The notes beneath the pieces were generated by a model. That model did not search any database and was not told the DNA's origin. It worked only from the letters and a program-made list of their open reading frames with translations. Position numbers and translations under genes: made by a program. A stretch of DNA of 64,000 nt from the NCBI RefSeq assembly GCF_021023135.1, contig NZ_PGFV01000001.1, positions 1,054,001 through 1,118,000 on the forward strand, given 5' to 3'. Positions within the stretch are counted from its first letter, which is position 1. The number at the start of each line of letters is the position of its first letter. This document shows, in pieces, positions 45,563-51,849 of this stretch. The stretch is from Brevibacterium sp. CCUG 69071. Lineage in GTDB: Bacteria; Actinomycetota; Actinomycetes; Actinomycetales; Brevibacteriaceae.

Positions 45563-48500
45563 GTGACCGCATCCACTCCGCAGCACCCAGACGCTCAGCG
45601 CTCTCCCGCCGATCCGCAGCTCTCCGCAGCTCCTCCGGAGCCGGCGGCGGACCAGTTCCCCGCGACGGGCCAGTCCCCCGCGACTCCGCAGTTTCCGGCG
45701 GGACCGCGTCCCCGTGAGGATCGCACGCTCGTCGACATCCTCCTCGAGACAGCGGGCGCCCACGGCGATCAGCCCGCGATCGACGACGGAACCCGAGTGC
45801 TCAGCTACTCCGAGATCATCGTCGCCATCCGCGACCTCGCACTCGAGATGTCCGCCCACGGCATCGGCCCCGGTGACAAGGTCGGTGTGCGTGTGCCCTC
45901 GGGTTCGGTCTACCTGTACCTGTCGATCCTGGCCACGATGATGCTCGGCGCCGCCTACGTCCCCGTCGACGTCGACGATCCCGATGAGCGGGCCCGCACG
46001 GTCTTCGCCGAGGCGGCCGTGACCGGAGTGATCACCGCCGGTCCCAGCATCGAATCCCGCACCGACCGCGCTCCCCTCGACCGTTCGCAGCTGCGCTCCC
46101 CGCAGCCCGACGACGACTGCTGGGTGATCTTCACCTCCGGTTCGACCGGCACCCCGAAGGGCGTGGCCGTGACCCATCGCAGCGCCGCGGCCTTCGTCGA
46201 CGCCGAGGCGGCCATGTTCTGTCAGGCCGAACCGCTGGGTCCAGGTGACCGCGTGCTCGCCGGGCTGTCCGTGGCCTTCGACGCCAGCTGTGAGGAGATG
46301 TGGCTGGCCTGGCGGCACGGCGCCTGCCTGGTGCCCGCCCCGCGCACACTCGTCAAATCCGGCATGGACCTGGGACCGTGGCTGTCCTCGCGGCAGATCA
46401 CCGTGGTCTCAACGGTGCCGACCCTGGCCGCCCTGTGGCCGGCCGAGAGCCTCGACAACGTCCGACTCCTCATCTTCGGCGGCGAGGCCTGTCCCCCGGA
46501 GCTGGGTCGCCGGCTCAGCGACGACGACCGCGAAGTGTGGAACACCTACGGACCCACCGAGGCGACCGTCGTCGCCTGCGGTGCGATGCTCGACGGCACG
46601 GAGCCGGTGCGCATCGGCCTGCCCCTCGACGGCTGGGCACTGGCCGTCGTCGACACACAGGGTCTGCCCGTCGCCGAGGGCGAGACCGGTGAGCTCATCA
46701 TCGGCGGGGTCGGCCTCGCCCGGTACCTCGACCCGGCCAAGGACGCAGAGAAGTTCGCGTCCATGCCCAGCCTCGGCTGGGAACGGGCGTACCGCTCCGG
46801 AGACCTCGTGGTCAATGACTCGCAGGGACTGATCTTCGTCGGACGCGCCGATGAGCAGATCAAGCTCGGCGGCCGGAGGATCGAACTCGGTGAGATCGAT
46901 GCCGCCCTCCAGGCCCTGCCCGGGGTTGAAGGAGCCGCCGCCGCGGTGAAGAAGACACCCGCCGGGACGGACATCCTCATCGGCTACCTCGCCGCAAGCG
47001 GTCGGGAGGAAGCGGCGAGCGCCGAGGCCCATCCGCGCATCGCCAAATGGGAGGCGCAGCTGCGCCGCGAACTGCCCGCCGCCCTCGTGCCCCGGCTGGC
47101 GCTGATCGAAGAGCTGCCGACGAAGACCTCCGGCAAGGTCGACCGCAACACTCTGCCCTGGCCGGTCGGCGATGCTGAGACCGGCGAGGACTCGGATGAG
47201 TTCTACGACTCCGACACCGAATGGATCGCCGAACAATGGGCCTCCGTCCTCGGAACCAGACCGGGCAATGCCACGGACTTCTTCACCGCCGGCGGCGGCT
47301 CCCTGACCGCCGCCCAACTGGTCTCGCGGCTGCGCACACGGCATACGAGCGTGACCGTCGGCGACATCTACGCTCATCCGCGCTTCGGGGCACTGGCAAC
47401 GGTCTGCCTCGGCGGGGAGGGCGCGGCCGCCCCCGCCCGACCGCGCCGCACGATCGGCCGGACCTCGAAGGGGATGCAGGCCTTCCAGACGCTGCTGGCG
47501 ATTCCGGTCCATATCCTCGGCGGGGTCAGGTGGGTCGTCATCGCCATGCTGCTGGCCAACCTCGGCGCCTCACTGGGTGCGGACCTGCCGGTGACGCCCT
47601 GGCCGGTCGTCATCGTCCTCTTCCTCGTCTTCGTCACCGCCTGGGGACGGATGCTCATCTCCGCACTCGCGGCGCGGCTGCTCATGCTCGGCATCACCCC
47701 CGGGGACTATCCCCGGTCGGGATGGGTGCACAAACGTCTGTGGCTGGCCGAGCACATCAACGACCTCGCCGCCGCGGTCTCCGTGGCCAGCGCCCCCTGG
47801 GTCAGCTGGTACGCGAAGCTGCTGGGCAACCGGATCGGTCCCGATGCGGACCTGCACTCGGCTCCCCCGGTCACCGGCTTCCTCACTCTCGGCGAGGGGG
47901 CGGCCATCGAACCCGAGGTCGACCTCAAGGGCTGGTGGGTCGACGGCGATCTGCTGCGCATCGGCGACATCGAGGTCGGAGCCCATGCCACGGTCGGCGC
48001 CCGCTCCACCCTCATGCCCGGGACCCGAGTCGGCCCCGGGGCACTCGTCGAGGCCGGCTCCGCCGTGACCGGTCGGGTGCGGAAGAACCAGATCTACTCC
48101 GGCTCCCCGGCCGTGCGGGTCGGCAAGGCGAAGAAGACCTGGCCGGCGCCCCCTGAGCGCAGACGTCTGCCCTTCCTCTTCTATGCCATCGGTTCGCAGC
48201 TGAATGCGGCCCTGCCCTATCTCGCCGCGGTGCCCGGCCTGGCACTCATGCTCGCCGTCTCCGGGATCGAGGTGCTCGAATCCCCGTGGCTGCTGCTCGC
48301 CTGGTCACCGGCCGTGGCCTGCATCTGGTTCGTCTGCACGGCCCTGTTCATCCTCGCCTCCGTGCGGATCCTGGCGATCGGAATGGAAGAGGGCGAATTC
48401 CCGGTCCGCTCCGCCCGCGGCTACCGGGTGTGGGCGACCGAGCGTCTGCTCGACCTCGCCCGTGACCTCCTCTTCCCTCTCTACGCCTCCATGCTCACCC

Positions 48501-49690
48501 CCTGGTGGCTGCGCCTCCTCGGGGCGAAGGTGGGACCCGGCACGGAGATCTCGACCGTGGTGTTCGTGCCGAAGATGACGACCATCGCCGCCGGCGCCTT
48601 CCTCGCCGATGACACGATGGTCGCCAGCTACGAACTCGGCCACGGCTGGATGCGCGCGGGCCGGGCGAAGGTCGGCAAACGCGCCTTCCTCGGCAACTCC
48701 GGCATCGCCTCACCCGGACGCCGGGTGCCGAAGAACTCCCTGGTCGCCGTGCTCTCGGCGGCACCGGCGAAGGCGAAGAAGGGCTCCTCCTGGCTCGGGT
48801 CTCCCCCGGTGCAGCTGCGCCGGGCCTCGGTCGATGCGGACGAGACGCTGACCTATGCGCCGAAGCTCGGGGTCAAGATGGCCCGCGGATTCTTCGAGAC
48901 CCTGCGGATCACCTCGGTGCTGGCCGGTGGGGCACTCATCGCCGCCGTCATCCTCACGATCTGGTCCCTGCTCGCTCTGCCGGGCGGATGGGGCGGATCG
49001 GACGGTTCCGGCGCGGCTGAGACAGCCGGTACGGCAGCCGGGGACGGTTCGTTCTTCGGCACCATCGCCCTCGCCCTGCTCACCTCGGGCGTGGTGATGA
49101 TGGCTGCCGGCGCGGTTGCCGCGGGACTGGCCGTGGCCGCCAAATGGATCTGCGTCGGCCGCATCAAGGACGGGGAGCACCCCCTGTGGTCCTCGTTCAT
49201 CTGGCGCAACGAGGTTGCCGACTGCTTCGTCGAACTCGTCGCCGCCCCGTGGTTCACCCGCAACGCCGTGGGCACCCCCGCCATCGTCTGGTACCTGCGG
49301 GCGATGGGCGCGAAGATCGGGCACGGGGTCTGGTGCGAGTCCTATTGGCTGCCGGAGACGGACCTCGTCCACCTCGGCGACAATTCGACCATCAACCGCG
49401 GCTGCGTGGTCCAGACCCACCTGTTCCACGACCGGGTGATGAGCCTCGACGCCGTCGAACTCGAATCCGGTGCGACCTTGGGCCCCAACAGCGTGATCCT
49501 GCCCGCCTCAACGCTGGGCACGAATGCGACCGTCGGCGCGACCTCACTGGTCATGCGCGGCGAATTCGTGCCCGCCCATGCGTACTTCAGCGGCAATCCT
49601 GTCATACCCTGGGTTGATGCACCAGAACTTCCCGCCCTCGACGAACACGAAGAATCCGACGCCGCAGAAGCAGGACGAGCACATGCTTGA
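45563..49690 (+). CDS. Pls-type non-ribosomal peptide synthetase (epsilon-poly-lysine synthetase-like)
   Basis: A 1375-residue multidomain membrane protein. The adenylation domain (about 50-535) has FTSGSTGTPKG near 190, AFDASCEEMW near 238, NTYGPTEAT near 327, YRSGDL near 410, GRADEQIKLGGRRIELGEID near 427-446 and Lys525 in KTSGKVDR. The carrier domain (about 550-615) has Ser580 in GGGSLTAAQL. Then come six transmembrane helices in three pairs (about 642-712, 880-945, 1113-1195), interleaved with three related C-terminal domains with hexapeptide-like turns. This A-T-TM-C layout is that of Streptomyces Pls. GTG start. It likely makes an isopeptide homopolymer; the amino acid is unknown. Confidence 0.9.
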   Translation: MTASTPQHPDAQRSPADPQLSAAPPEPAADQFPATGQSPATPQFPAGPRPREDRTLVDILLETAGAHGDQPAIDDGTRVLSYSEIIVAIRDLALEMSAHGIGPGDKVGVRVPSGSVYLYLSILATMMLGAAYVPVDVDDPDERARTVFAEAAVTGVITAGPSIESRTDRAPLDRSQLRSPQPDDDCWVIFTSGSTGTPKGVAVTHRSAAAFVDAEAAMFCQAEPLGPGDRVLAGLSVAFDASCEEMWLAWRHGACLVPAPRTLVKSGMDLGPWLSSRQITVVSTVPTLAALWPAESLDNVRLLIFGGEACPPELGRRLSDDDREVWNTYGPTEATVVACGAMLDGTEPVRIGLPLDGWALAVVDTQGLPVAEGETGELIIGGVGLARYLDPAKDAEKFASMPSLGWERAYRSGDLVVNDSQGLIFVGRADEQIKLGGRRIELGEIDAALQALPGVEGAAAAVKKTPAGTDILIGYLAASGREEAASAEAHPRIAKWEAQLRRELPAALVPRLALIEELPTKTSGKVDRNTLPWPVGDAETGEDSDEFYDSDTEWIAEQWASVLGTRPGNATDFFTAGGGSLTAAQLVSRLRTRHTSVTVGDIYAHPRFGALATVCLGGEGAAAPARPRRTIGRTSKGMQAFQTLLAIPVHILGGVRWVVIAMLLANLGASLGADLPVTPWPVVIVLFLVFVTAWGRMLISALAARLLMLGITPGDYPRSGWVHKRLWLAEHINDLAAAVSVASAPWVSWYAKLLGNRIGPDADLHSAPPVTGFLTLGEGAAIEPEVDLKGWWVDGDLLRIGDIEVGAHATVGARSTLMPGTRVGPGALVEAGSAVTGRVRKNQIYSGSPAVRVGKAKKTWPAPPERRRLPFLFYAIGSQLNAALPYLAAVPGLALMLAVSGIEVLESPWLLLAWSPAVACIWFVCTALFILASVRILAIGMEEGEFPVRSARGYRVWATERLLDLARDLLFPLYASMLTPWWLRLLGAKVGPGTEISTVVFVPKMTTIAAGAFLADDTMVASYELGHGWMRAGRAKVGKRAFLGNSGIASPGRRVPKNSLVAVLSAAPAKAKKGSSWLGSPPVQLRRASVDADETLTYAPKLGVKMARGFFETLRITSVLAGGALIAAVILTIWSLLALPGGWGGSDGSGAAETAGTAAGDGSFFGTIALALLTSGVVMMAAGAVAAGLAVAAKWICVGRIKDGEHPLWSSFIWRNEVADCFVELVAAPWFTRNAVGTPAIVWYLRAMGAKIGHGVWCESYWLPETDLVHLGDNSTINRGCVVQTHLFHDRVMSLDAVELESGATLGPNSVILPASTLGTNATVGATSLVMRGEFVPAHAYFSGNPVIPWVDAPELPALDEHEESDAAEAGRAHA

Positions 49691-50987
49691 TCCCTACACT
49701 CCAGGGGTCGGCAGCACCGAGTTGAGGATCGACCACTACGATCTCGATCTCGACTACCGGATCGGTCCGAATCGCCTCTCCGCGAAGGCCGTCCTGACCG
49801 GGCGCGTGCTCACGGACACCTCGAGCATCGTCCTCGACCTCACCGGTCTGCGGGTGACCAAGGCCAGCGTCAACGGTTCCAAAGTGCGGTTCTCGACCCG
49901 CGGGAAGAAGCTGCGTCTGTCGACGGGAGCACTGCACAAGAACCAGCCGGTGCGCATCGACATCGCCTACGTCGGCAACCCCCGTCCGGCGATCGGAACC
50001 TGGGGCGATATCGGCTGGGAGGAGCTCGAGGACGGTGTGCTCGTAGCTGGTCAGCCGGTCGGCGCCTCGACGTGGTTCCCCTGCAACGACCACCCGTCGG
50101 AGAAGTCGAAGTACCGGATCAGGTTGCTCACCGAGTCCGAGTACACAGTTGTCTCCAACGGTCGGCTCACCGACAAGGTGCGCAAGGCCGGGCGGACCGC
50201 CTGGACCTACGAATCGACGACGCCGCTGGCCAGCTACCTGGCCACGATCCAGATCGGCCGGTACCGGCACTCGCAGATCGCCGCCGAGGATCGGTACCCC
50301 GAGGCCCCCGTCCCGCTGGGTCTCTACGCCGGTGAGCACTGGCTGCGGGCGGCCACCCGGCTGCGGATCCAGCATCGGATGATGAACCTGTTCATCGACC
50401 GGTTCGGCCCCTACCCCTTCGAGGTCTACGACGTGGTCGTGACCGATGACGAGCTCGAGATCCCCTTGGAGTCCCAGCCGCTGTCGGTGCTCGGACCCAA
50501 TCATCTCGGCCCCGAGTGGGAGGCCGAACGCCTCGTCGCCCATGAGATGGCCCACCAGTGGTTCGGCAATTCGCTGACCCCGCGCCGCTGGGCCGACATC
50601 TGGCTCAACGAGGGATTCGCCTGCTATGCCGAGTGGCTGTGGTCCGAGGAGTCCGGGCGCGGCAGCGCCGATGATTGTGCGGAGTCCTGGAGAGAGGCCT
50701 TGGCGGCTCAGCCGCAGGACATCATGCTCGGCGACCCGGGCGGGCCGGATATGTTCGATGACCGCGTGTACAAGCGCGGTGCCCTGTGTCTGCACGCCCT
50801 GCGGCTGACGATCGGCGATGAGGCGTTCTTCACCGCGATCGGCGAGTGGACGACGAAGCACCGGCACGGTTCGGTCGAGACCGCTGACTTCATCGAGTGC
50901 GTCACCCAGGTGGCGGGCCGTGACGTCGCCGAGGTGGTCCATCCCTGGCTGAATGAGCTGGAGCTGCCCGAGCTGCCGCGCCGCTGA
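49683..50987 (+). CDS. M1-family zinc metallopeptidase coupled to the Pls-like gene
   Basis: A 434-residue peptidase with intact gluzincin features: HEMAH at 287-291, the third zinc ligand Glu310 in WLNEGFA at the expected 18-residue spacing, and Tyr363. The usual GAMEN exopeptidase motif is replaced by PLESQ (about 261-266). There is no signal peptide, so it is probably cytoplasmic. ATG 49683 overlaps the synthetase stop by 8 nt, so expression is coupled; ATG 49617 is an alternative. It could degrade the polymer product or provide self-protection. Confidence 0.9.
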   Translation: MLDPYTPGVGSTELRIDHYDLDLDYRIGPNRLSAKAVLTGRVLTDTSSIVLDLTGLRVTKASVNGSKVRFSTRGKKLRLSTGALHKNQPVRIDIAYVGNPRPAIGTWGDIGWEELEDGVLVAGQPVGASTWFPCNDHPSEKSKYRIRLLTESEYTVVSNGRLTDKVRKAGRTAWTYESTTPLASYLATIQIGRYRHSQIAAEDRYPEAPVPLGLYAGEHWLRAATRLRIQHRMMNLFIDRFGPYPFEVYDVVVTDDELEIPLESQPLSVLGPNHLGPEWEAERLVAHEMAHQWFGNSLTPRRWADIWLNEGFACYAEWLWSEESGRGSADDCAESWREALAAQPQDIMLGDPGGPDMFDDRVYKRGALCLHALRLTIGDEAFFTAIGEWTTKHRHGSVETADFIECVTQVAGRDVAEVVHPWLNELELPELPRR

Positions 50988-51069: not shown

Positions 51070-51849
51070 TCAGTCGGTGGTGAGGCGGCGGACGAGGATG
51101 TCCGAGTTGCCGTGGCGTCCCACCGAGACGAATCCCAGGTCGTGGTAGAGATGGGCCGCCCCGTTGCCGTCTTCGACGGAGAGGCTCACGGCCGGGAAGC
51201 CGCTGATCCGAGCCAGCGTGCAGACGACGTCGAGGAGGGCTCCCCCGATGCCCTGTGACTGGTGATCGGGCAGGACGGCGATCGAGAGTTCGGGGATGTC
51301 TGCTGCGACCCAGCCATAGCCGGTGAAGGGTCCGTTGTCTCCCTCGCCGCTGGCACTGTCGCTGTCGTCGGCGCTCTCTTCCGCCGAACTGACGGTGTTG
51401 TCGATGAGGTCGCCGTCGGCTTCCGTGTCGTCGTTGTTTCCGGTGTTGTCGTCGGCGCCCGTGTCGTCGGTTCCCGTGTCATTGCCGGCTGCGGTGCCGT
51501 CCTTGACGGTCCTGTCGCGCTTGTCGATGACCGCGTCGATATCGGCCAGCCGCAGCCAGGCCAGTCCGATGATCTCGGACTCGGAGTCCTCATCGGCTCG
51601 GGCAGCGACGGCGATATCGCCGCGTCGACCCCATCCCTTGTAGTAGAAGGCGGCATCCTCGCGCTGCGCCAGCTCCTCGAGCTCGATCCGCGGTTTATCC
51701 ATCGACCAGTTGAAGCACAGGTCGAGGAACGGCAGAAAGGTCTCATCGGCGGTCTCGGACGGCAGCGGCCGGATCCGGTTCCGCAACGTTTCGCGGTCCT
51801 TCGCCCCCACCTCGGCGGTCTCATCGCTGCGGTTCTGGCCTTCGTTCAT
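51070..51849 (-). CDS. GNAT N-acetyltransferase with internal acidic insert
   Basis: A 259-residue enzyme. The acetyl-CoA loop is LSIAVLPDHQSQGIGGALLD (188-207), followed by VSLSVEDGNGAAHLYHDLGF. Between the N-terminal half (GLAWLRLADIDAVI near 95) and that core lies an Asp/Thr/Asn/Ser-rich low-complexity stretch of about 59 residues (115-173) with D(T/N)TG(A/T)DD repeats. This replaces the short loop usually found between two strands of the fold. Start ATG 51849 overlaps the MATE gene by 4 nt. Acceptor unknown. Confidence 0.87.
   Translation of the reverse strand: MNEGQNRSDETAEVGAKDRETLRNRIRPLPSETADETFLPFLDLCFNWSMDKPRIELEELAQREDAAFYYKGWGRRGDIAVAARADEDSESEIIGLAWLRLADIDAVIDKRDRTVKDGTAAGNDTGTDDTGADDNTGNNDDTEADGDLIDNTVSSAEESADDSDSASGEGDNGPFTGYGWVAADIPELSIAVLPDHQSQGIGGALLDVVCTLARISGFPAVSLSVEDGNGAAHLYHDLGFVSVGRHGNSDILVRRLTTD

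Follow-up and report, generated by a model that had tools for sequence, protein, structure and literature searches.

What does a large Pls-type synthetase make in Brevibacterium sp. CCUG 69071, and what is the role of the metallopeptidase whose gene overlaps that of the synthetase? Both genes lie in the window analysed here, the whole stretch of 64,000 nucleotides (contig NZ_PGFV01000001.1, positions 1,054,001 to 1,118,000, assembly GCF_021023135.1), which sits in a 4.13-Mb genome of 20 contigs. An earlier annotation of this DNA (the original prediction) had described the pair as a Pls-type peptide polymerase coupled to an M1 peptidase, with a building block and a product that were not known in this kind of organism. 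We argue, with high confidence, that the locus is a pls-pldII type operon of Brevibacterium, predicted to serve the synthesis and the hydrolysis of epsilon-poly-L-lysine (epsilon-PL), an antimicrobial polymer which the partner peptidase most likely trims or degrades. The features in question are the following, in positions of the window.

45563 to 49690, plus strand: pls, a Pls/PosA-family synthetase, predicted epsilon-PL synthetase (TIGR02353, 7WEW match)
45722 to 47167, plus strand: adenylation (A) domain, residues ~54-535 (Pfam, 7WEW comparison, pocket placed by motif)
47219 to 47401, plus strand: thiolation/carrier (T) domain, residues 553-613, with the phosphopantetheine serine Ser580 (PF00550, alignment)
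47468 to 49690, plus strand: hydrophobic segments in three pairs, consistent with six membrane helices, with C1, C2 and C3, bounds approximate (hydropathy, hexapeptide repeats, conservation)
49683 to 49690, plus strand: 8-nt overlap of pls and the M1 gene (sequence read directly)
49683 to 50987, plus strand: M1-family metallopeptidase, PldII-like, with HExxH-x18-E at residues 287-310 (PF01433, PF17900, Streptomyces M1 comparison)

The pls open reading frame encodes 1375 amino acids, starts with GTG and ends with the TGA at 49688-49690. Its product scored 638.9 bits against TIGR02353, the NCBIfam model of the Pls/PosA family (cut-off 423.1, E = 1e-191), and was the sole match above the cut-off in its own genome, where two other matches reached 21 and 20 bits; among the control genomes, weak matches occurred in 13 of 14 and a match above the cut-off in one of 14. 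Pfam recognised an AMP-binding domain, a PP-binding domain (PF00550) and hexapeptide repeats (residues 803-837), and the best PDB match was 7WEW, the A domain of epsilon-poly-L-lysine synthase (E = 7e-188), followed by linear gramicidin synthase (E = 8e-106). After the carrier domain a simple hydropathy scan marked three hydrophobic regions (residues 643-704, 880-906/909-942 and 1113-1144/1162-1199), consistent with six membrane helices, the pair in 643-704 not being cleanly split by hydropathy; a weak additional segment (115-133) falls within the A domain. These stretches bound the regions C1 (~705-879), C2 (~943-1112) and C3 (~1200 to the end). The layout is A-T, six transmembrane segments and three C regions, with no separate condensation or thioesterase domain, and with the TIGR02353 score it bears out the Pls architecture that had been claimed for this protein.

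The residues expected of a working synthetase are intact. The carrier serine, residue 580, is Ser in all 82 aligned Pls rows; left out of this count and of that for the C regions were five of the 87 rows, namely L015 and L065 (mis-framed), L087 and L088 (non-lysine) and 7WEW (A domain only). Columns of C1-C3 that are common to lysine-type and distant members are intact (for example W982, R984, N1045, Q1284-T1285-H1286 and D1290-R1291), the integrity of the C regions being judged by such conserved columns, none of which is named as proven catalytic in the literature sections covered. The synthetase differs at five of 471 columns conserved in ≥93% of 81 relatives (residues 68, 85, 96, 530 and 595; L015 and L065 again excluded), and all five residues are located in the A or carrier domains. 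The loss of catalytic C-domain residues, which the original prediction had named as an argument against active polymer synthesis, was not seen, and decayed C regions were rejected on the same conserved columns.

The ten residues of the adenylation pocket, assigned by motif and numbered after the gramicidin synthetase code, read DAESIGTVVK (D240, A241, E244, S283, I304, G306, T328, V336, V337 and K525). They are a lysine-type code, identical to 7WEW at 10/10 positions, and the two A domains share 306 of 482 aligned positions. Because of this identity the building block, earlier described as not known, can be predicted from the pocket comparison that had been proposed: the substrate is most likely L-lysine and the product most likely epsilon-PL. 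The same code occurs in 83 of the 87 aligned rows (window and 7WEW counted), the other four being the mis-framed L015 and L065 and two distant relatives with other codes, L087 (DLEDIGSVVK) and L088 (DFEYLGTVTK). Over its full length the synthetase is 49-54% identical to L085, L086 and L089, which carry the lysine pocket, and 31% identical to L087 and L088.

It may be asked whether the enzyme instead builds its polymer from a different diamino acid (ornithine, diaminobutyrate, diaminopropionate or beta-lysine), or whether its product is short. The family does have synthetases for such substrates, according to the covered sections of PMC10522769, and relatives with other pockets exist, L093 (DFECLSVVTK) as well as L087 and L088. 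One such synthetase is PosA, the delta-poly-L-ornithine synthetase of Acinetobacter baumannii, which belongs to the same family and has the same C-terminal layout; its pocket is DMEHNGTVSK, with Asp at position 1 and Glu at position 3 reported essential, whereas lysine-activating members are reported with Ala at position 2 (PMC10522769, same sections). The window pocket has Ala at position 2 and matches 7WEW throughout, the overall identity favours the lysine-pocket relatives, and L087 and L088 had no M1 match in the 14 kb fetched. A substrate other than lysine was rejected on the pocket identity, and we regard this alternative as very unlikely; for the short dipeptide-like compound once suggested no support was found.

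The second gene encodes a protein of 434 amino acids from the ATG at 49683, in which Pfam found Peptidase_M1 (E = 9e-30) and its N-terminal domain. The residues of its HExxH-x18-E motif, H287, E288, H291 and E310, are kept in 77, 79, 78 and 77 of 82 aligned M1 rows, respectively; two of the exceptional rows are gapped and the remainder are probably off-frame. Among the other 81 rows, 66 columns are conserved at ≥93%, and the enzyme departs from none of them. Aligned with the enzyme encoded beside the annotated pls of Streptomyces sp. NBC_01454, it shares 177 of 435 positions. PldII itself is presumably a member of family M1.

The start codon of the M1 gene lies inside the end of pls, and the 8-nt overlap stands as originally described, with AGGA shortly upstream of the ATG. 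Further upstream the frame stays open as far as another ATG, at 49524 within pls; we prefer 49683 because homology begins there and because six of the eight named Brevibacterium loci (L005-L009 and L036) share the spacing of -8, L010 having +5 and L011 -4. The M1 gene after the annotated Streptomyces pls overlaps by 4 nt, and that of Kitasatospora (L086) lies 128 nt downstream of pls. Given the overlap, coupled expression of the synthetase and the M1 enzyme is the likely reading, in agreement with the original prediction. The coupling is not new, since pls-pldII is already known as an arrangement of a synthetase with a peptidase beside it; pairs of this kind, coupled in this way, have been described, and the window pair is another member.

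The published work on such pairs is cited here for the sections covered. A pls-peptidase operon was reported in Corynebacterium variabile (Jiang et al. 2021, PMC8117764), whose pls gave epsilon-PL of 26-35 residues when placed in S. coelicolor; pls was reported in 14 of 15 Brevibacterium isolates, and coryneform pockets as identical or highly similar to those of confirmed Pls (PMC8117764). A published prediction exists, with Brevibacterium surveyed and a Corynebacterium enzyme shown to make epsilon-PL, and the product can no longer be called not known in this kind of organism. In Streptomyces albulus, pldII is described as adjoining pls and coupled to it in translation, and PldII as lying outside the membrane; PldII is called an aminopeptidase and a metallopeptidase, and its mode of action is given as endo-type in places and as one-by-one cutting from the N-terminus in another (PMC9223678). 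The window synthetase has the same A-T, membrane segments, C1-C3 and pocket as the Pls of S. albulus, to which the A domain 7WEW belongs (species from the literature), and the same layout as the C. variabile Pls, likened by description and not by sequence; the peptidase gene is directly downstream in all, and the window layout fits the descriptions in PMC8117764 and PMC10522769. The metallopeptidase gene likewise adjoins pls as pldII does in S. albulus, the likeness to PldII again being one of description, as the sequence compared was the M1 enzyme of Streptomyces sp. NBC_01454. With the window, one more Brevibacterium genome joins the published list of cheese- and skin-type bacteria that are likely to produce epsilon-polylysine. 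No assay of a Brevibacterium enzyme was found in the open-licence literature, as covered by titles and the starts of abstracts.

How constant the pair is was examined in a family survey of 60 genomes, 57 of them in the genus, with tables read by eye. Orthologues of pls and of the M1 gene adjoin on one contig in 43 of the 60 (43/57 of the genus), while neither is present in the remaining 17 (14 of the genus and three from outside it), and no genome has one alone. The Pls orthologues of the genus show 68-86% identity and the M1 matches E < 1e-100. The Pls orthologues of G013 and G034 are split between contigs (with 64% for one of the G013 pieces), that of G010 has one in-frame stop, and G054, among the 17 genomes without orthologues, carries a more distant Pls (46%) with no matching M1. 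M1 is also found downstream of pls in 80/80 named related loci, which, as the best matches to this protein, are uninformative about remoter parts of the family. Its start-equivalent is at most ~170 nt from the pls stop in 75 of them, the wider spacings being 600-700 nt (L035, L054, L064 and L069) and 1.3-2.2 kb (L065, a range that depends on where the pls stop is placed). The nearest named loci are from Brevibacterium, with 83-85% identity in L005-L009 and L036 and 67% in L010 and L011. These counts of pairing are not independent, the genomes being related. The pair is kept together in relatives, the point on which the original prediction had made the functional link depend; its description of the synthetase as an uncommon class finds no support here, with 43/57 genomes of the genus carrying the pair and at least 594 genome stretches in a contig scan encoding a synthetase relative, not all necessarily Pls.

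The same counts bear on whether the M1 enzyme might be an unrelated housekeeping aminopeptidase placed there by chance. M1 enzymes are widespread, further and weaker M1 matches occur in these genomes, and a lysine-type locus without an M1 neighbour, L089, does exist; but the M1 orthologue tracks the pls orthologue exactly (43 genomes with both, 17 with neither, n = 60) and adjoins it, while seven other neighbours gave one match in the 23 non-Brevibacterium loci examined of 72. Chance neighbours were rejected on the genus-wide pairing, and we consider a fortuitous placement of the M1 gene extremely improbable.

A separate observation concerns the M1 match itself, which is interrupted near query residues 200-206 by ~100-200 extra bases in 12 of the 43 genomes (G009, G014, G019, G024, G026, G027, G029, G036, G039, G044, G048 and G053); G019, G027 and G044 also have an in-frame stop in the second part of the match. 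The interruption looks like a lineage-specific insertion.

We infer substrate use, polymer formation, export, the activity of M1 on epsilon-PL and its biological role from these comparisons. In the mechanism proposed, Pls would adenylate L-lysine and load it on carrier Ser580, and the membrane-bound C1-C3 would join the lysines by bonds from alpha-carboxyl to epsilon-amino group. The resulting epsilon-PL would be released outward, and the overlapping M1 enzyme would hydrolyse it, limiting the chain length or protecting the producer.

Several points weigh against the reading as a pls-pldII type operon for epsilon-PL. The M1 enzyme is just 41% identical to the Streptomyces M1 compared and shows no signal, so it may act at another site. 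Nor is the pairing universal, as L089 (Streptantibioticus), with its lysine pocket, had no M1 match in the 13.9 kb fetched. A scan for promoters found no promoter-like site, which says little in this group, and the one terminator-like site found is no more than in shuffles. Further, neither C. variabile nor C. glutamicum expressing its pls gave detectable epsilon-PL in the covered sections of PMC8117764, and production of epsilon-PL in Brevibacterium is for this reason unproven. An explanation compatible with the operon reading is that the operon is intact and seldom expressed, or that the M1 enzyme made along with Pls degrades the product at once. That the C. variabile cultures yielded no polymer fits this, as does the absence of Pls protein from C. 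variabile proteomics (PMC8117764, same sections). Strong residue conservation and the keeping of the pair in 43/57 genomes suggest, on the other hand, use in some condition, and C. glutamicum made no polymer although the cloning, as described in those sections, names pls alone, so M1 activity is not the sole cause there. We regard a mostly silent or self-degrading operon as possible, though on the unlikely side.

The operon reading leaves the place at which the M1 enzyme would act to be considered. The reported location of PldII in S. albulus is outside the membrane (PMC9223678, sections covered), whereas no signal peptide is apparent on the window enzyme: the 434-residue reading has no hydrophobic N-terminal segment by a crude hydropathy measure, with which export remains compatible, and with an overlap of 8 nt a signal peptide would fit only if M1 translation starts inside pls. 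The M1 of Streptomyces L085 begins with a basic and hydrophobic stretch. The comparison of N-termini took in 80 of 85 loci: besides L085 and L086, these were 78 of the 80 named ones (L014 and L032 were left out, and L087-L089 have no M1). The hydropathy threshold of 1.6 was passed by L054 alone, through an implausible 124-residue extension, L085 falling just below it at 1.59 and L086 at 0.54, and it draws no sharp line between the groups. That no export signal is apparent is the only mildly new point, a small testable difference bearing on what the partner peptidase is for. We tentatively suggest, as an idea with the odds against it, that the coryneform PldII-like M1 enzymes are cytosolic, so that hydrolysis is split from synthesis by the membrane and M1 removes only leaked or re-imported chains. 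If true, the polymer would leave through Pls, M1 would be a device for immunity or lysine recovery, and the close overlap of the two genes, 8 nt in this clade, would keep the Pls:M1 ratio fixed.

Upstream of the pair the minus strand encodes an amidohydrolase and a VTT-domain protein, and downstream of it a GNAT acetyltransferase, a MATE transporter, a thiolase and an SDR. The neighbours tested for recurrence were the amidohydrolase, VTT protein, MFS, thiolase, SDR, GNAT and MATE, in 31 of the 80 named loci, which reach ~8 kb on each side, and genes further out could be missed. They recur, in part, solely in the eight Brevibacterium loci, the only other match being a weak one for the SDR (36%, L020). 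Because of this distribution the two-gene pair is, by these comparisons, the conserved unit, and a larger gene cluster was rejected. The GNAT gene (51070-51849, minus strand), which is convergent to the M1 gene, encodes a protein whose central portion is acidic. In three Brevibacterium loci the best single match to it is 51-57%, three more have a partial match of 70-85%, and L010 and L011 have none. A polymer-modifying role for it is conceivable, though unsupported.

A second, more distant Pls-like synthetase was noticed in the same genus, at 5562-9470 of L090 (G054), 9881-5997 of L091 (G053) and 9124-5117 of L092 (G044), with 43-45% identity and a lysine-like pocket, DAESIG(T/S)VIK; no M1 match was found in the 15 kb fetched of each, and the L092 copy has an in-frame stop. 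L093 (4579-8454, from G008 of the same genus) carries a Pls/PosA-like synthetase of 29% identity, whose pocket is unlike the lysine code, with no M1 match in the 14 kb fetched. The genome of the window also holds, at G000:C19:88673-97093, a separate multi-module open frame of 3574 amino acids resembling nonribosomal peptide synthetases, which accounts for three listed matches to the A-T part.

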